Shown here one piece after another: positions 1 to 11,863 of a stretch of 41,008 nt of DNA (position 1 is its first letter; the number at the start of each line of letters is the position of its first letter). A model generated the notes under the pieces. That model saw only the letters and a program-made list of their open reading frames with translations. It ran no database searches and had not been told where the DNA came from. The position numbers and the translations under genes were made by a program. Source of the stretch: Deltaproteobacteria bacterium (GTDB lineage Bacteria > Desulfobacterota > Desulfovibrionia > Desulfovibrionales > Desulfomicrobiaceae); assembly GCA_009930495.1 (NCBI GenBank), contig RZYB01000006.1, positions 1 to 41,008 of the forward strand, in the 5' to 3' direction.

Positions 1-124
1 GGACTTCATCAAGGCCATGGGCAAGCAGAACGAGGAATTCATCATGATCCTCGATATCGCCAAGGTCTTTTCCGCCCAGGAACTGTCATTGATCCACGAC
101 CCCGAGATGGCCGAGCCCAATTGA
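1..124 (+). CDS. cheW: CheW adaptor, C-terminal fragment (cut by window start)
   Basis: Only the last 40 codons are present, in the frame starting at base 2 and ending with TGA at 122-124. The peptide has the end of a CheW fold: F-I-K-A-M-G-K, then E-E-F-I-M-I-L-D-I and K-V-F-S. CheW couples chemoreceptors to the CheA kinase at the inner membrane. The receptor-like gene begins 46 bases downstream on the same strand and the rest of a che operon follows, which supports the call. The sequence matches the CheW C-terminus better than the CheA P5 domain because it ends shortly after the conserved I-L-D-I strand. The full length and start cannot be seen. Confidence 0.8.
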   Translation, partial: DFIKAMGKQNEEFIMILDIAKVFSAQELSLIHDPEMAEPN

Positions 125-170: not shown

Positions 171-2099
171 ATGCCCCACGCCACCGACACGCCCTCCGAC
201 CCACGCCAGGCCCTGAACCGCTGCGCCGGCCTGCTCGACCCGCTCCTGCCGCGACTGGCCAGGGTCATCAAGGACCGGGAAGAGGATTTCCTTGGTCTGG
301 GCGCCGGTATTTTCCAGATCAACGCGGCCATCGGACGCTTTTCCACCGAGGCCTCGGGCTTGGCCACGTCCGTTGGCGCGGGCGGAGTCGGGCGGGCACT
401 GACCGAATTGGGCGCGGAGTCCGCCCAGGCCCGGGAGATCTTTTCCTCGGTGACCATGGATGGAAACCTGGAAGGCATGGACCAGGCCCTGGTGCTGATC
501 AAGGAACTGGACCAGGCCATGGGTGAATTCCATCGTCTGGTCAAAACGCTCAAGGTTCTTGGAATCACAACCCGCATCGAAAGCGCGCGTCTGGGGTCCG
601 CCGGTCAGGGATTCACCACCCTGGCCGACGACGTCGAAAGCCTGGCCGCCAAAATCGTGCACTACGCCGAAACCATCCGTGGCCATTCCCGCCTGCTCCT
701 GACCCAGGTCGGCACGGCCCAGGCCCAGACCGTGACGCACATGCGCGGCCACGCCCAGACCGTGCGGACCATGTTCGACAACCTGTTCGCCAGCATCTCC
801 GAGCTCGAAGCCATGCGCGGCCGGTCCGCGAACCTCGTGGACGAACTGGCCCAGGGCTCGCGCCTAGTGGCCGAAAGCATGGGGCAGATCATTGCCTCGA
901 TGCAGTTCCACGACATCACCCGCCAGCAGGTCGAGCACGTCGAGGAAATCCTGGCCCAGGCCGTGCGCGAAATCCAGGATCTGGACGAATCCACCGACCC
1001 GCGCGGGCTGGCCTCCTGGGTCCGCGACGTGCTCCGCCTCCAGGCCCCGCAACTGCGTCAGGCGCGGGACATGTTCCACAACGCCGTGACCGGGCTCATG
1101 GCCAGCATGTCCATCATCGGGCAAAAAATCGAAGCCCTGGAAGATCGGATCACGGCCCTGGCCTATGGCGCCGACGACCAGGGACAAAGCATTCTGGACA
1201 CCATCCGGGCCAACATCGCCCAGGTCATCGAAGCCATGCGCCAGGCCGGCGACCAAGCCTCGAGCACGGGCGCCATCATGGCCGAGGTGGCCGGGACCGT
1301 GTCCCAGGTGGCGGCCTTCGTGGCCGACATCGAGGAAGTGGGCGCCGAAATCGAACTCATCGCCATCAACGCCAGCGTCAAGGCGGCCCACACCGGCGAC
1401 CAGGGACGGGCCCTGGGTGTCCTGGCCGTGGCCATCCAGCGTCTGTCCGTCGATGCCCGTCAGCACACGGCCATCGTCACCGAAAAGCTGACCGCCATTT
1501 CCCGCGCCGCCTCCCGTTTGAACGATCTGGCCCAATCGGCCGATGTCGGGGATTTGGTCGCCGAGCTCAACGACAAATTTTCCGGCCTGCTCGATGCCCT
1601 GGCCGGGCTGGACTCGGACATGAAAAACGGCGTCCTGCGCCTGTCGGAAATGACCGGAAGCCTGACCACCCAGATCCGCGAGGCGACCGGTTCCATCCAT
1701 GTGCATACCCTGGTTGGCGAGGAACTGGATGCCCTGGAGGCCGAAATCGCGGCCATGGGCGAGCACTTCACCGCCTTCAAGGACGAACTGGACGCGGCCA
1801 GCCAGCCCGAAAAGCTCAAGGAGCAATTAAGCCGCTACACCATGGACAGCGAGCGGCTGGTCCATCTGGCCGTGATCGGGCATGAATCCGGGACCGAAGA
1901 CGCTGTCCAGGGCGACGACGTGGAACTCTTTGACGACGTGGAACTTTTCGACGACAACATTGAACTTTTCGACGGCGTGGAGCTTTTTGACGAAACCCCG
2001 CCGCCGACAGCGCCAACTCCGCCCGTAACCGAAACTCCCGCCCAGACCGCGGCGGTTGAAGTCGAGGAAGATCTGGGCGATAACGTGGAACTATTCTGA
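171..2099 (+). CDS. Soluble receptor-like chemotaxis protein with two degenerate hairpin motifs and VELF tail
   Basis: The 642-residue product has no signal peptide or membrane segment, is mostly predicted coiled-coil helix, and is probably cytoplasmic. Two stretches resemble the chemoreceptor signalling tip. Residues 129-160 contain I-E-S-A-R-L-G-S-A-G-Q-G-F, and residues 395-425 contain I-A-I-N-A-S-V-K-A-A-H-T-G-D-Q-G-R; compare [12 protein letters not shown] in the true receptor at 9803. Both are diverged. Residues 582-607 carry four tandem D-x-V/I-E-L-F units. A Pro/Thr/Glu-rich linker follows, and the protein ends in D-N-V-E-L-F. The start is the ATG at 171, with AAGGA about 11 bases upstream. 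It lies between cheW and a STAS/cheY/cheA/cheR series, so a role in the same signalling array is likely. Whether it activates CheA, scaffolds the array or binds CheR is unknown. Confidence 0.75.
   Translation: MPHATDTPSDPRQALNRCAGLLDPLLPRLARVIKDREEDFLGLGAGIFQINAAIGRFSTEASGLATSVGAGGVGRALTELGAESAQAREIFSSVTMDGNLEGMDQALVLIKELDQAMGEFHRLVKTLKVLGITTRIESARLGSAGQGFTTLADDVESLAAKIVHYAETIRGHSRLLLTQVGTAQAQTVTHMRGHAQTVRTMFDNLFASISELEAMRGRSANLVDELAQGSRLVAESMGQIIASMQFHDITRQQVEHVEEILAQAVREIQDLDESTDPRGLASWVRDVLRLQAPQLRQARDMFHNAVTGLMASMSIIGQKIEALEDRITALAYGADDQGQSILDTIRANIAQVIEAMRQAGDQASSTGAIMAEVAGTVSQVAAFVADIEEVGAEIELIAINASVKAAHTGDQGRALGVLAVAIQRLSVDARQHTAIVTEKLTAISRAASRLNDLAQSADVGDLVAELNDKFSGLLDALAGLDSDMKNGVLRLSEMTGSLTTQIREATGSIHVHTLVGEELDALEAEIAAMGEHFTAFKDELDAASQPEKLKEQLSRYTMDSERLVHLAVIGHESGTEDAVQGDDVELFDDVELFDDNIELFDGVELFDETPPPTAPTPPVTETPAQTAAVEVEEDLGDNVELF
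1914..1991 (+). repeat. In-frame tandem repeat encoding D-x-V/I-E-L-F units
   Basis: Four units lie side by side (D-D-V-E-L-F, D-D-V-E-L-F, D-D-N-I-E-L-F, D-G-V-E-L-F), and a fifth (D-N-V-E-L-F) ends the protein at 2082-2096. Synonymous codons differ between units: CTC/CTT for Leu, TTT/TTC for Phe, GAA/GAG for Glu. The repetition is therefore kept at the protein level and is not a recent DNA slippage product. Confidence 0.85.
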
Positions 2100-2116: not shown

Positions 2117-2443
2117 ATGTTCACCTGCACCCATGGTGGCACCGAAGCCGCACCGATCATCACCCTGGCCAATGACCTGACCCTGGAACATTGCCGGGAA
2201 ATCCACGCGGAGCTTAAGCGTGCTTTTCCCGCGCGGGAACTCCGTCTCGACCTTTCGGCCTCGGAGAAATCGGACGCGTCCTTTCTCCAGCTTCTCCATG
2301 CCCTGATCCGGCACGCCGGCGCCACCCAGACCCGGCTACTCCTCATCGCCCCCCTGCCCGACCATCTGGTGTCGCTGGCGGCGACGGTCGGGGCGTCCGG
2401 CCTGATCAAGGACATCTCCACCCATATCGAGGAACCCCAATGA
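2117..2443 (+). CDS. STAS-domain protein of the chemotaxis operon
   Basis: This 108-residue single-domain protein fits the STAS family (anti-sigma-factor antagonist/MlaB-like fold). It has the strand L-R-L-D-L-S at 42-47, then S-D-A-S-F-L-Q-L-L at 52-60. S55 sits where SpoIIAA-type proteins have their phosphorylatable serine. No kinase or phosphatase partner of the SpoIIAB/SpoIIE type is visible. The start has GGAG six bases upstream. Its stop overlaps the cheY start in an ATGA tetranucleotide, so the two are translationally coupled. STAS proteins in che operons probably act as binding switches, but the partner here is unknown. The fold call is fairly firm; the role is inference. Confidence 0.75.
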   Translation: MFTCTHGGTEAAPIITLANDLTLEHCREIHAELKRAFPARELRLDLSASEKSDASFLQLLHALIRHAGATQTRLLLIAPLPDHLVSLAATVGASGLIKDISTHIEEPQ

Positions 2444-2802
2444 GCAAGATAATCATGACCGTCGATGATTCCGCCAGCGTCCGCCAGATGGTCTGCCTGA
2501 CCCTGAAGGACGCGGGCTACACGATCATCGAGGCCTGCGACGGCAAGGACGCCCTCGCCAAGCTGACCGGTCCCGTGGATATGATCGTGACCGACCTGAA
2601 CATGCCCAACATGGACGGCATCGAGCTGATCCGTTCCGTCCGGGGCATGGCCCCGTACAAATTCGTGCCCATCATCATGCTGACCACCGAATCCCAGGCC
2701 AACAAAAAAGAGGAAGGCAAGGCCGCTGGCGCCACGGGCTGGATCGTCAAACCCTTCAAGCCGGAACAACTCCTGGCCGTGGCCAAGAAACTCCTGCGCT
2801 AA
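2440..2802 (+). CDS. cheY: CheY-type single-domain response regulator
   Basis: The 120-residue receiver domain has every catalytic residue in place: D9 and D10 for the metal ion, D52 as phospho-acceptor (V-T-D-L-N-M-P), T82 and K104 (V-K-P-F-K). Position 101 is Trp, where flagellar CheY usually has Tyr or Phe that rotates on activation. There is no output domain, so the phosphorylated protein must act by binding, either to the flagellar switch or as a phosphate sink. It overlaps the STAS gene by four bases and precedes cheA by 23 bases, so CheA is the likely phosphodonor. The segment K-K-E-E-G-K-A-A-G-A-T-G-W is typical of the CheY subgroup linked to chemotaxis operons. Confidence 0.9.
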   Translation: MSKIIMTVDDSASVRQMVCLTLKDAGYTIIEACDGKDALAKLTGPVDMIVTDLNMPNMDGIELIRSVRGMAPYKFVPIIMLTTESQANKKEEGKAAGATGWIVKPFKPEQLLAVAKKLLR

Positions 2803-2825: not shown

Positions 2826-4895
2826 ATGTCCCGCGAAGAACAAAACCGACTGGCGTTCAAGGAAGAAGCCCTGGAGCTCCTGGGAGAACTGGAATCTTCC
2901 CTGCTGGAACTGGAAACCGATCCCCACGACGACGAGATCATCAACCGGGTCTTCCGGGCCATGCACACCATCAAGGGCTCCGGGGCCATGTTCGGTTTCG
3001 AGGACATCGCCACCTTCACCCACGAGGTGGAAACCGTGTTCGACCTGGTCCGCAACGGCCAAATGACCGTGTCCAAGGAACTGCTGGACCTGACCCTGCT
3101 GGCCCGGGACCACATCCTGGCCATGCTCGAAGGCCAGGACGAGCATCTGGGCGAGCAGGCCGAGCGGGTCATCACGGGCCTTAAAATCCTGTGCCCGCGT
3201 CTGGAGGAAACCGCGCCCGCGCGGTCTTCCGAAGACCGGGAACAACCTTCCGACACCGACGCGCCCTGCCCGAGCACATGGCGGGTACGCTTCATCCCGC
3301 CCGCCAATCTTTTCCTGACCGGGACCAATCCGGGCGCCCTGCTGGAAGAACTGTGCGAGCTGGGTCAGTACCACGTCATCATGCACACCGACAGCATTCC
3401 GTCCCTGGATGATCTGGACCCGGAACAATGCCACGTCTGGTGGGACGTGATCCTGACCACGGTCCATGGCGAGGACGCCATCCGCGACGTGTTCATCTTC
3501 GTGGAGGAGGACAGCGACCTGACCATCCAGGAAGTCGGCTCCTGCCAGACCATCGACGAGGAGTCCTACAAACTCATCGGCCAAATCCTGCTGGAAAAAC
3601 AGGACGTTTCCAAGGACGATCTGGAGCGCATCCTCCTTGAACGCAAACCCATCGGCCAGCTTCTGTCCGAAGCCGGATTGGTCAGTCCGAGCCAGGTCGA
3701 GGCCGCCCTGGCCGAACAGCAGGCCGTGCGCCGCTTGCAAGCCCAGCCCCAGCAGGCCGAAACCCAGGCCTCCAGCATCCGGGTACCGGCGAACAAACTG
3801 GACTATCTGGTCGATCTGGTCGGGGAGCTGGTCACGGCCCAGGCCAGATTGACCCAATTCGCCGGCGAGCACGCCAACCCGCACCTGCAGGCCATTTCCG
3901 AGGAAATCGAACGTCTGTCCGACGAATTGCGCGACAGCACCCTGGGTATCCGCATGCTGCCCATCGGCACCACGTTCAGCCGTTTCAAACGTCTGGTGCG
4001 CGATTTGTCCCAGGAACTGGGCAAGCACATCGTGCTCGACACCCTTGGGGCGGAAACGGAGTTGGACAAAACCGTCATCGAACGCCTGAGCGATCCCCTG
4101 GTCCATTTGCTGCGCAACAGCATCGATCATGGAATAGAACTCCCGGACCTCCGCACGGCCAGAGGCAAGCACCCCGAGGGACGCATCGAGCTTTCGGCCG
4201 AGCATTCCGGTGGCGAGGTCCTGATCCGCATCACCGACGACGGCCAGGGCATCGACCCGGACCGCGTCCGGGCCAAGGCCGTGGAAAAAGGGCTGATCGC
4301 CGCCGACGCCATCATCCCGGACAAGGACGCCCTGCTGCTCATTTTCGCGCCGGGCTTTTCCACCGCCGAAAAGGTCACCAATGTCTCGGGCCGGGGCGTG
4401 GGCATGGACGTGGTCAAGCGCAATATCGACGCCCTGCGCGGCCGGGTCGGCATCGAAAGCGAGGTCGGACGCGGCACCACGGTCACGGTGCGCATCCCGC
4501 TGACCCTGGCCATTATCGATGGTCTCCAGGTCCAGGCCGGCGACAGCTATTTCGTCATGCCGCTCTCGGCCGTGGAAGAATGCGTCGAACTGATCCGCGC
4601 CAACGACGAGGACCGCAAGGCCTTCATCAACCTGCGTGGCCAGGTCGTGCCCTACATCAGCCTGCGCCAACGCTTCGATATTCCGGGAGAAGCACCGGGC
4701 ATCGAGCAGGTCGTGGTCACCAACACCCAGGGCCAGCGCGTCGGCATCGTCGTGGACCACGTCATCGGCGAGCACCAGACCGTGATCAAAAGCCTGGGCA
4801 AGGTCTACCAGGACGTGCGCGGCATTTCCGGGGCGACCATCAAGGGCGACGGCAGCATGGCCCTGATCCTCGACATCCCGAGCCTCATCGCCTGA
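2826..4895 (+). CDS. cheA: Chemotaxis histidine kinase CheA with an extra MshEN-like module
   Basis: The 689-residue product has the CheA domain order. Hpt/P1 covers about 1-125 with phospho-acceptor H47 (A-M-H-T-I-K-G-S). A P2-like domain covers about 151-235. The dimerisation domain P3 is about 315-385. The ATPase P4 shows N-box H-L-L-R-N-S-I-D-H-G (428-437), G1 D-D-G-Q-G-I-D (471-477) and G2 G-R-G-V-G-M-D (522-528). The CheW-like P5 is about 555-689. Between P2 and P3, residues 249-298 form two consecutive segments of about 24 residues (L-I-G-Q-I-L-L... and P-I-G-Q-L-L-S-E-A-G-L-V...A-L-A-E-Q). They resemble the tandem motif of MshEN/GspE N-terminal domains. CheA phosphorylates CheY (and CheB where present). 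The start has AAGGA nearby and follows cheY by 23 bases. Confidence 0.95.
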   Translation: MSREEQNRLAFKEEALELLGELESSLLELETDPHDDEIINRVFRAMHTIKGSGAMFGFEDIATFTHEVETVFDLVRNGQMTVSKELLDLTLLARDHILAMLEGQDEHLGEQAERVITGLKILCPRLEETAPARSSEDREQPSDTDAPCPSTWRVRFIPPANLFLTGTNPGALLEELCELGQYHVIMHTDSIPSLDDLDPEQCHVWWDVILTTVHGEDAIRDVFIFVEEDSDLTIQEVGSCQTIDEESYKLIGQILLEKQDVSKDDLERILLERKPIGQLLSEAGLVSPSQVEAALAEQQAVRRLQAQPQQAETQASSIRVPANKLDYLVDLVGELVTAQARLTQFAGEHANPHLQAISEEIERLSDELRDSTLGIRMLPIGTTFSRFKRLVRDLSQELGKHIVLDTLGAETELDKTVIERLSDPLVHLLRNSIDHGIELPDLRTARGKHPEGRIELSAEHSGGEVLIRITDDGQGIDPDRVRAKAVEKGLIAADAIIPDKDALLLIFAPGFSTAEKVTNVSGRGVGMDVVKRNIDALRGRVGIESEVGRGTTVTVRIPLTLAIIDGLQVQAGDSYFVMPLSAVEECVELIRANDEDRKAFINLRGQVVPYISLRQRFDIPGEAPGIEQVVVTNTQGQRVGIVVDHVIGEHQTVIKSLGKVYQDVRGISGATIKGDGSMALILDIPSLIA

Positions 4896-4902
4896 TCCGG
4901 CC

Positions 4903-5745
4903 ATGACCACGCCCAACGCGGACGCCCCGCTCATGACCGACCGCGAGCTGAAGCAGTTCAGCGAGTTCATCTACACCGAACTGGGCATCAAGATCACCCA
5001 GACCAAGAAAACCATGCTTCAGGCCCGCCTCCAGCGCCGGCTGCGCACCCTGAACATGCGCAGCTACGGGCAGTATCTGGAATACCTGCAGACCCTCAAG
5101 GGGCTGGAAGTGGAACTGCCCCGGATGGTCGACGCCGTGACCACCAACACGACCAGCTTTTTCCGCGAGCCCAAGCATTTTGAATTTCTGACCACCACGA
5201 TTCTGCCCGAATGGACCAAGCGCAATCCGGACCGCGCCTTTTCCATCTGGAACGCGGGCTGCTCCTCGGGCGAGGAGCCCTACACCACGGCCATGGTCCT
5301 TCTGGACTACGGCGAACGGGTTGGGCCGTTGCGTTTTTCCATCCTGGCCACGGACATCTCCACGGACATCCTGCACAAGGCGGCCCGGGCCGTGTACGAG
5401 GAAGAAAAAATCGGAACCATTCCCCTGGATTTCAGACTCAAATACCTGTTGCGCAGCAAGGACCGAAACAAAAGACTGGTCCGCGTGGCCCCCGAAGTCC
5501 GGAACACGGTCGGCTTCAGGCGGTTGAACTTCATGGACGATTTTCAGTTCCGGGAGTGCATGGACCTTATTTTTTGCCGAAACGTCATGATTTACTTCGA
5601 TAAAAAAACACAACACGAACTGGTCCAAAAATTCTGCGATCATTTGAAACCAGGAGGGCACCTCTTCATTGGCCATTCCGAAAGCCTGTCCGGCACGGGG
5701 CTACCCCTCAGGCAACTGGCCCCGGCCACGTACCAACGTCTGTAA
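4903..5745 (+). CDS. cheR: CheR chemoreceptor glutamate methyltransferase
   Basis: The 280-residue product matches CheR: an N-terminal helical domain (about 10-80) and a SAM-binding Rossmann domain. The signature W-N-A-G-C-S-S-G-E-E-P-Y-T lies at about 119-131, and D-L-I-F-C-R-N-V-M-I-Y-F-D near the C-terminus. CheR transfers methyl groups from S-adenosylmethionine to receptor glutamates for adaptation. The gene starts seven bases after cheA. A second in-frame ATG at 4936 (M-T-D-R-E-L) is a possible alternative start, since the first 11 residues look non-conserved. No CheB methylesterase is in view. The repeated N/D-V-E-L-F tail of the protein at 171-2099 could be its docking site (inference). 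Confidence 0.95.
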   Translation: MTTPNADAPLMTDRELKQFSEFIYTELGIKITQTKKTMLQARLQRRLRTLNMRSYGQYLEYLQTLKGLEVELPRMVDAVTTNTTSFFREPKHFEFLTTTILPEWTKRNPDRAFSIWNAGCSSGEEPYTTAMVLLDYGERVGPLRFSILATDISTDILHKAARAVYEEEKIGTIPLDFRLKYLLRSKDRNKRLVRVAPEVRNTVGFRRLNFMDDFQFRECMDLIFCRNVMIYFDKKTQHELVQKFCDHLKPGGHLFIGHSESLSGTGLPLRQLAPATYQRL

Positions 5746-9739: not shown

Positions 9740-9768
9740 TTGATCTATTTCCCCCGAGACCGTAATAG
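9740..9768 (+). promoter_or_regulatory. Possible sigma-70 promoter of the Cache chemoreceptor
   Basis: TTGATC (9740-9745) and TAATAG (9763-9768) are 17 bases apart, 34 bases before the receptor start. Matches to consensus are moderate (4/6 and 3/6). A flagellar sigma-28 type site was looked for and not found. Confidence 0.3.
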
Positions 9769-9802
9769 TATCCTATCGCATATCCACCATCGGGAGGGCT
9801 CA

Positions 9803-11863
9803 ATGTTCAATCTTCGGTCCATCAAGTTCACAACCAAACTTTTTATCGGCATTCTGACCATCCTCGTCCTTTCCATCTTCACCGTGAACACGGTCACCAC
9901 CATCCAGGTCCGCTCCGATCTCTTCAAGCTCGGCCGCGAGGACTTGAAAAGCATCAGTGACTCGGTTTTCAATTCCCTGGTCGCCCAGCATTCCATCCTG
10001 CAGGAAAAACTAAGCGGCGACATGCTGATCCTGGAAAATGAACTCAGCGACCTGGGCGCGATCTCCCTCGACACCATGAACATGCGCTCCCAGACCATCA
10101 CCAACCAGGTGACCAAGGCCCAGGAACAGGCCACCTTTCCGACGCTAAACGCCAATGGCGTCATCCTCAACGGCAACGACCAGATCGTGGACTCGCTCCA
10201 ACGCATGGTCGGCGGCGTGGCCACCATTTTCCAAGTGGTGGACGGCAAGCTGCTGCGCATCACCACCAATGTCGTGGACGCGGTCGGAAAACGAGCCGTG
10301 GGCACGTACATCCCCTCCGACAGCCCGGTCTACAAAACCATCATGCGTGGCGACACATACACGGGACGCGCCTTTGTCGTGAACGATTGGTATTTGACCG
10401 CCTACAAACCCCTCAAGGATGTCACGGGGAAAATCATTGGCGCCATGTTCGTTGGACGCAGCATCCTGACGCCGCAGTTGCGGGAAATCCTGACCGCCAC
10501 CAAGGCAGCCGGCGTTGGCGACTTTTTTGTCTACAACTCCGAAGGCACCCTGCTCGTCCACTCCAAGCTTGAAGGTCAAAATATCTTTGAACTGCCCGGA
10601 GTCGGTGAACTCTACCGGACTCACAAAGGCGGCTTCATCGACTATGAATGGGACGGCGACACCACAATCTCCCACACCCAGTACTTTGAACCCTGGGATT
10701 GGCATCTGGGCGTTGGCCTGAGCACCACCCAGATGTTGCGCGGCCTGGACCAAAAAATCATCCTCGAAAGCGTTCTCGTCGGCGGCATCGCCATCGTCCT
10801 CGGCATCGTGGTCTCGATCTTGCTGATCCGGGCCATTTCCCGCCCCCTGGCCCAGCTGGCGGCCCAAAGCCTAAAAATGGCCGAAGGCGACTACACCGTG
10901 AACTTCTCCTATCCCGCCAAGGACGCCATCGGCAACCTGGCCGAATCCATGACCACCATGGTCGAAAGGACCAAGGAAATGCTCGGCGAAATCACCGCCG
11001 CGACCCAGGCCCTGGCGGCCTCGTCCTCGGAGCTCTCGGCCATCTCCACCCAGATGACCGGCAATTCGACCCAGACCGCCCATCTGGCCGGCACCGTCAA
11101 CAGCTCGGCCGAAGACGTCAGCGGCAACATGAACTCGGTGTCCGCGGCCATGGAAGAAGCCGCCATCAACATGAACACCGTGGCCACGGCGGCCGAGGAA
11201 ATGTCGGCCACGATCCAGGAAATCGCCCAAAATTCCGAGCGGGCCAGAAACACCACCGCCAGCGCGGTGGACAAATCCAGAACCACGTCGGAACGCGTTC
11301 ACGAGCTGGGCTCGGCGGCCAAGGAAATCAACGCGGTCACGACCACCATCACGGCCATCTCCTCCCAAACGAATCTCTTGGCCCTGAACGCGACCATCGA
11401 AGCGGCGCGGGCCGGGGAAGCCGGCCGGGGGTTTGCCGTTGTCGCCAACGAAATCAAGGAGCTGGCCCTGCAAACCGCCAAGGCCACCGAGGACATCCGG
11501 GAAAAAATCAACGGCATCCAGTCCGTGACCGGCCAGACCGTGCATGAAATCAGCGAAATCACGGACGTCATCAGCGAGGTCAACGACATCGTTGGCACCA
11601 TCGCCGCCGCCGTGGAGGAACAATCCGTGACCACGCGGGACATCGCCGAAAACGTCGGCCAAGCGTCCATGGGCATCTCCGAAATCAATGGCAATGTGGC
11701 CACCAGTTCGTCCATGACCCGATCCATCAGCCAGGACATCGAAAAAGTCCGCCTCGCTTCCGAGGAGATGACCATGAGCAGCCAGACCGTGCAGCAAAGC
11801 GCCACGGAGCTGTCCACCCTGGCCGAGCGCCTGGCGGAGCTCGTGTCGCGCTTCAAAATCTGA
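9803..11863 (+). CDS. Methyl-accepting chemotaxis protein with periplasmic Cache domain
   Basis: The 686-residue transmembrane receptor has a first membrane helix at about 12-33 and a periplasmic sensor at about 34-320. The sensor resembles the Cache_3-Cache_2 type: [15 protein letters not shown] and [11 protein letters not shown] second membrane helix spans about 322-344, then a HAMP linker, then the coiled-coil signalling domain with tip [12 protein letters not shown] at 533-544. It has no CheR-docking pentapeptide and ends V-S-R-F-K-I. The start at 9803 has GGGAGG seven bases upstream. Cache sensors commonly bind small organic acids or amino acids; the ligand here is unknown. It may feed the CheA at 2826. 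Confidence 0.95.

Follow-up and report, generated by a model that had tools for sequence, protein, structure and literature searches.

The tail of a soluble, receptor-like protein encoded in a chemotaxis operon of a Desulfomicrobiaceae bacterium ends in GDNVELF, which looks like a C-terminal docking motif carried on a disordered linker, and its best supported partner is CheY of the same operon. The gene of this protein, called here X, lies near the beginning of the window, that is the whole stretch of 41,008 nucleotides analysed (contig RZYB01000006.1). Because the evidence on the tail favours CheY and X has an invariant DxxxQ, we propose that X is a CheZ-like protein, docking CheY by its tail and removing its phosphate or at least holding it, and consider this reading somewhat better than an even bet. 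The relevant features, in positions of the window, are:

1..123, + strand: end of cheW, C-terminal 41 aa, with the start upstream of the window; frame DFIKAMGKQNEEFIMILDIAKVFS...
171..2099, + strand: gene X, a 642-aa soluble all-helical MCP-signal-like protein with a disordered tail (Pfam MCPsignal E 8e-14, two stretches)
573..596, + strand: RIESARLG, a segment resembling an MCP tip (residues 135-142), conserved with little or no change in the alignment and predicted within an unbroken helix in both structure models
903..938, + strand: QFHDITRQQVEH, with the invariant CheZ-like DxxxQ, D248 and Q252 (alignment of X relatives)
1833..1856, + strand: RYTMDSER, residues 555-562, the last conserved block ahead of the variable linker; its Y, T, M and final R do not vary in the alignment of X relatives
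1914..1931, + strand: internal copy 1, DDVELF, read from the sequence, as are the next three
1932..1949, + strand: internal copy 2, DDVELF
1950..1970, + strand: internal copy 3, DDNIELF
1971..1988, + strand: internal copy 4, DGVELF
1989..2075, + strand: linker rich in Pro, Thr, Glu and Ala, read from the sequence (pLDDT 36-52 for equivalent linkers in models of two relatives)
2076..2096, + strand: terminal motif GDNVELF, with the stop codon TGA directly after; Leu-Phe end invariant, predicted strand in the CheY read-through model
2117..2443, + strand: STAS-domain protein, 108 aa (Pfam STAS_2 E 1e-12), overlapping cheY by 4 nt
2440..2802, + strand: cheY, 120 aa, encoding the protein to which the tail is proposed to dock (Pfam Response_reg E 3.5e-25)
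2826..4895, + strand: cheA, 689 aa, with domains Hpt, H-kinase_dim, HATPase_c and CheW
4903..5745, + strand: cheR, 280 aa, beta-subdomain KYLLRSKDRNKRLVRV (Pfam CheR E 6e-60; gap-free alignment to Salmonella CheR 1bc5)

Thus, the gene order in the window is cheW-X-STAS-cheY-cheA-cheR, a tight operon in which reading frames and Pfam confirmed the neighbours STAS, cheY, cheA and cheR as the first-pass annotation gave them. The cheW fragment at 1..123 is too short for a Pfam assignment and received none; it is 63-88% identical to the ends of full CheW proteins, which are encoded intact at the same place in relatives. By an order-wide search X was registered in 67 of 247 genomes and 22 of 51 genera of Desulfovibrionales. 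Its orthologues in genomes of the same genus, whose named records include Desulfomicrobium MAGs, are 52-56% identical and mark the source as Desulfomicrobium-like, and the operon X-(STAS)-cheY-cheA-(cheR) is kept across relatives. One genome of the same genus (G024) has the entire X-STAS-cheY-cheA-cheR cluster duplicated (L048 and L049), with 7 VELF-type units in one X and 2-3 in the other.

More relatives were gathered by a collection scan with the patterns QFHDI[TVA]RQ and RYTM[ED]xERx[VI]. The tail is part of neither, and loci chosen in this way do not have its conservation built into the sampling. The scan, which with the single X sequence gave no match in genome contigs and recovered relatives with an alignment query, reached Geobacterales, Nitrospirae, and Syntrophus-type and Ignavibacteria/Bacteroidota MAGs. 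The motif stands at the end of all 79 loci found by the scan and of all loci of the order. Among 130 distinct relatives Leu-Phe is the exact C-terminus in every one, preceded by [ED] in 130/130, [VI] in 129/130 and Asn in 126/130; before this Asn, Asp was found in 119 and, further upstream, Gly in 110 of the 130 proteins. The usual ending is GDN[VI][ED]LF and the overall form [GD][DN]N[VI][ED]LF-COOH. All six Leu codons are used for the motif Leu, both Phe codons are used evenly, and the linker upstream of the motif differs in length and content among relatives. With a near-invariant terminal motif and a free linker, selection on the motif is strongly purifying and acts at the protein level. 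The initial description of a docking-type motif under such selection, placed on a flexible linker of a soluble receptor-like protein of the che operon, is therefore borne out by the 130 relatives and the use of all Leu codons. Orthologues having an intact cheR and a freely differing tail were looked for as well, but the terminal motif is preserved in each of the 130 distinct relatives. In its genome only X has a C-terminus of the GDNVELF type. Among the papers searched, none contains NVELF or FHDITRQ with this meaning, and no expression-level or published evidence on the motif was found.

The internal copies behave differently from the terminal one and are not under such selection. The last 61 residues of X hold five V/I-E-L-F units, four of them being the internal copies at residues 582-606, and 20,000 shufflings of the 87-residue tail never gave more than two [VI]ELF, so that the five-copy tail is real. 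Divergence of the repeat codons was also confirmed, V/I, E, L and F being written differently among the five copies. The four tandem D-x-V/I-E-L-F units are present as reported, except that the third is longer, with 7 residues (DDNIELF). In relatives the number of internal copies varies from 0 to 7, and 108 of 147 loci have none; arrays of 2-7 copies were found mainly in Desulfomicrobium, the genus of the window, and one other genus (named record Desulfonatronum). The internal copies arose by recent expansion in a few lineages, and the arrays of these two genera apparently expanded separately. The multi-site character suggested earlier is thus lineage-specific; similarly, the survey of V-E-L-F in homologues revealed conservation of the terminal copy and a variable copy number of the repeat array. 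A Proteobacteria MAG outside the order (L206) has three internal copies about 20-30 residues apart, each reading DLGDGIELF or DLGDGVELF; here the whole terminal block was expanded independently.

Genomic context points to CheY. Its gene is the constant neighbour of X and directly adjoins X in about 20 loci without STAS. Eight genomes from other genera that carry X have orthologues of the window CheY with 72-79% identity, as has every X-bearing genome checked, and in a genus with cheY moved away from X the identity is still 72-75%. Such CheY was absent from 13 of 14 X-less genomes, the contig of the 14th ending inside cheY, and this co-occurrence does not separate CheY from the other members of the operon. 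In the genus with named records Solidesulfovibrio X stands directly before cheA, and STAS-cheY is located behind another cheA-like gene (loci L081, L087, L095-L100, L210 and L212-L215). Three smaller genomes of the same genus as the window (G034, G048 and G064; 2.3-2.8 Mb) have neither X nor its CheY and keep a canonical CheZ. Comparison with 85 other receivers gave for X-linked CheYs a signature that includes K95, K99, T104, G105, W106, Q115, V119 and K122 (E. coli numbering), situated on alpha4-beta5-alpha5. K95, K99, W106 and K122, which are basic or aromatic and conserved on this output face, are predicted to suit an acidic peptide.

Structures were modelled by AlphaFold2 as single chains, taking natural loci where X is in frame with the next gene and reading stops as Gly. 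The only construct with CheY (L056, the same family as the window) joins X to CheY through 31 residues and lacks STAS; of the 102 rows in its alignment 24 were paired read-throughs, and X-only rows stopped before the tail. The mean pLDDT of this model is 89, falling to 39-52 in the tail linker. Residues 611-620 (LGDNVELFGI) reach pLDDT 86 and V615-E616-L617 form a beta strand, while the internal copy at 596-600 is disordered. All remaining strands of the model are those of CheY, from which pairing of the motif with the CheY sheet follows for the model. It suggests that GDNVELF may dock CheY by beta-strand addition of V-E-L, although the read-through itself, by setting CheY at a distance of 31 residues from the motif, biases the model towards docking. 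In the control (L047), where X is in frame with STAS, all four copies have pLDDT below 50 and form no strand, and STAS is well folded. This control is an imperfect match to L056, as it has a 5-residue spacer and another alignment (69 rows, 28 paired), and the predicted contrast is taken as support for docking to CheY, short of proof. VIA-align and Foldseek returned, among the matches listed, receivers only for the CheY model of L056, including 1f4v and related structures, and MCP coiled coils and STAS folds for the STAS model of L047; CheZ did not appear in the listed matches, an absence that carries no weight either way. Altogether, CheY, which the first-pass annotation had as one of several possible partners, became the best supported one by operon structure, co-occurrence and the AlphaFold2 model.

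The body of X resembles receptors in part and carries a hallmark of CheZ. MCPsignal matched in 33/33 aligned members and is above the cut-off in X of the window; the Pfam search of X revealed no ligand-binding or sensor domain, and its helical N-terminus of about 120 residues has no Pfam sensor domain. True receptors turn at the hairpin tip. The tip-like segments RIESARLG and IAINAS of X (window 555-902 and 1242-1628) lie inside unbroken long helices in both the L056 and the L047 model, an arrangement with which X may be a straight rod, not a receptor hairpin. Residues Q245, H247, D248, R251, Q252 and H256 are invariant, and the block S-x-Q-F-H-D-I-x-R-Q-Q-x-E-H around them is invariant or nearly so. 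DxxxQ is the phosphatase motif of CheZ (PMC7750401), where Gln147 and an acidic residue enter the active site of the receiver (PMC3035606); in X it is predicted to be helical (helix 249-277 of the L056 model, numbered there D251/Q255). Hhalign against CheZs of the order placed this DxxxQ gap-free on SFQDLTGQRIKR, with a probability of 4.2%. Pfam CheZ gave no match at E<=1 in X of the window and NCBIfam CheZ gave E 0.026, far below the cut-off; in 7 of 33 relatives Pfam CheZ matched weakly (best E 1e-4), coiled-coil noise being similarly strong, and a separate search gave E 1.7e-4 for one relative. A phosphatase role of X may be regarded as a weak lead. An ordinary CheZ is encoded elsewhere in the genome (L041, contig C39; FQDLTGQ, end DVDDLLSQLGL), so that X, if a phosphatase, would be a second, pathway-specific terminator.

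Several other partners were considered for the tail. According to the first of these alternatives, favoured initially, the motif is a divergent NWETF tethering CheR or CheB, and CheR, gathered at the array by X, methylates neighbouring receptors. It agrees with NWETF at positions 1, 3 and 5 (N, E/D and F) and has a free C-terminus; cheR belongs to the operon of X in many lineages; the operon CheR keeps R187 and R197, its beta-subdomain has the length of that in Salmonella CheR, and the subdomain is conserved and contains strongly basic LLRSKDRSKRLVR, which would suit an acidic peptide. However, receptor pentapeptides obey the rule xZxxZ, where Z is F, W or Y (PMC7390727), and NVELF does not, having V or I at position 2 in 129 of 130 relatives. 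Six contacts of CheR with the pentapeptide, Q182, R187, G188, G190, G194 and R197, are named in PMC2577667, and by the gap-free alignment with Salmonella CheR two of these six, R187 and R197, are kept in the operon CheR, whose residues corresponding to Q182, G188, G190 and G194 are L, S, D and R. Of the 15 other MCPs encoded in the genome, none has such a pentapeptide at its end, the frame of one of them (L248) being less certain. The C-terminus of the transmembrane-type MCP at window positions 9740-11863 is RFKI, not a CheR pentapeptide. A strict methylation consensus, seen in nearly all receptors of the genome, is missing from X of the window with its MCPsignal match and was found in 6 of 68 X orthologues. 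Besides, several X clusters have no cheR nearby, and in the internal copies the carboxyl end is not free. CheR is present in 47/47 X-bearing genomes searched, and phylogeny therefore does not decide on it. As NVELF departs from xZxxZ, no other receptor of the genome bears a pentapeptide and four of six contacts are replaced, CheR loses its place as the favoured partner, and tethering of CheR or CheB is unlikely. The operon CheR may still bind a different acidic peptide, since relatives share the basic LLRSKDRSKRLVR.

It is also rather improbable that the motif docks CheA, CheW or a polar landmark, X being a structural adaptor of the array, although cheA stays beside X even in the genus where STAS and cheY have moved and the MCP-like body hints at insertion into the array; an ordered site is already offered by the read-through model with CheY. 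Binding to the adjacent STAS protein in a partner-switch system, another option of the first-pass annotation, could be expected from the position of the STAS gene, directly after X in most lineages and across phyla. However, in about 20 loci the gap of 19-264 nt between X and cheY is too short for STAS and the motif is kept, and in the AlphaFold2 model of X with STAS every copy is left disordered next to the well-folded STAS domain, which makes this partner very unlikely. The short sequence x-L-F resembles the sliding-clamp-binding motif. Such a reading, QL(S/D)LF, and those of a degron or PDZ-type ligand setting the amount of X are suggested by the strictly C-terminal hydrophobic end of all relatives and were set aside as scarcely credible: the Gln of the clamp motif never occurs (Asn in 126/130) and the context is chemotaxis, expansion of internal copies is pointless for a signal of the free end, and conservation of N and E/D is unusual for a degron.

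Returning to CheY as the partner, one can assume that tethering draws CheY or CheY~P close to the helical body of X, a long one, where the invariant D248-x-x-x-Q252 would copy the catalytic DxxxQ of CheZ. X would then dephosphorylate CheY at the array, or at least hold it there, and in Desulfomicrobium and Desulfonatronum each X would hold more CheY molecules through its extra copies, giving avidity. The layout of CheZ would thus be reached with a different body and, as predicted by the model, with a beta-strand rather than a helical peptide. The broader idea, that X founds a family of CheY~P phosphatases or scaffolds which is widespread but undescribed and combines a receptor-like rod, strand addition by GDN[VI][ED]LF and, in some sulfate reducers, a store of up to eight CheY sites, is tentative and we consider it more doubtful than probable. 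In any case, a chemotaxis family with a very strictly kept C-terminal motif extends across phyla and is seemingly undescribed, and C-terminal tags on receptor-like proteins need not be CheR tethers. If CheY is docked, this would be a third way to hold it, after the peptides of CheZ and FliM, would account for the way in which the signal of the X pathway is ended or buffered in many delta-type bacteria, and would provide a natural series of 1 to 8 sites for studying tether avidity.

Among known systems, the operon of cheA3 in D. vulgaris may or may not be this cluster: cheA3 is given there as the terminal gene (PMC3944678), while cheA of the window has cheR downstream. Geobacter CheRs of groups A-C belong, in the consulted part of PMC2577667, to related clusters without recognisable pentapeptide receptors, as here; X and its GDNVELF/GDNVDLF end are absent from that part of the account. 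Chemoreceptors with pentapeptides NWETF/xZxxZ (Tar, Tsr and McpB of P. aeruginosa) share with X an MCP signalling domain and a C-terminal tag of five residues placed after a flexible linker. Unlike them, X has V/I at position 2, no consensus methylation sites and repeats inside the linker, its tag is shared by no other receptor of the genome, and the contacts in CheR are not kept. With CheZ (PF04344; PMC7750401) X shares the layout, a helical body carrying DxxxQ, a disordered linker and a C-terminal peptide, for which binding of CheY is proposed in X. In contrast to CheZ, the body of X is MCP-signal-like, about three times longer and gives no significant CheZ match, and its terminal peptide is predicted to be a strand, not a CheY-binding helix. 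Peptides of the FliM N-terminus and CheZ C-terminus are short and acidic-hydrophobic, as that of X, and meet CheY at alpha4-beta5-alpha5. Both bind CheY as helices, whereas for the peptide of X the model predicts a strand.
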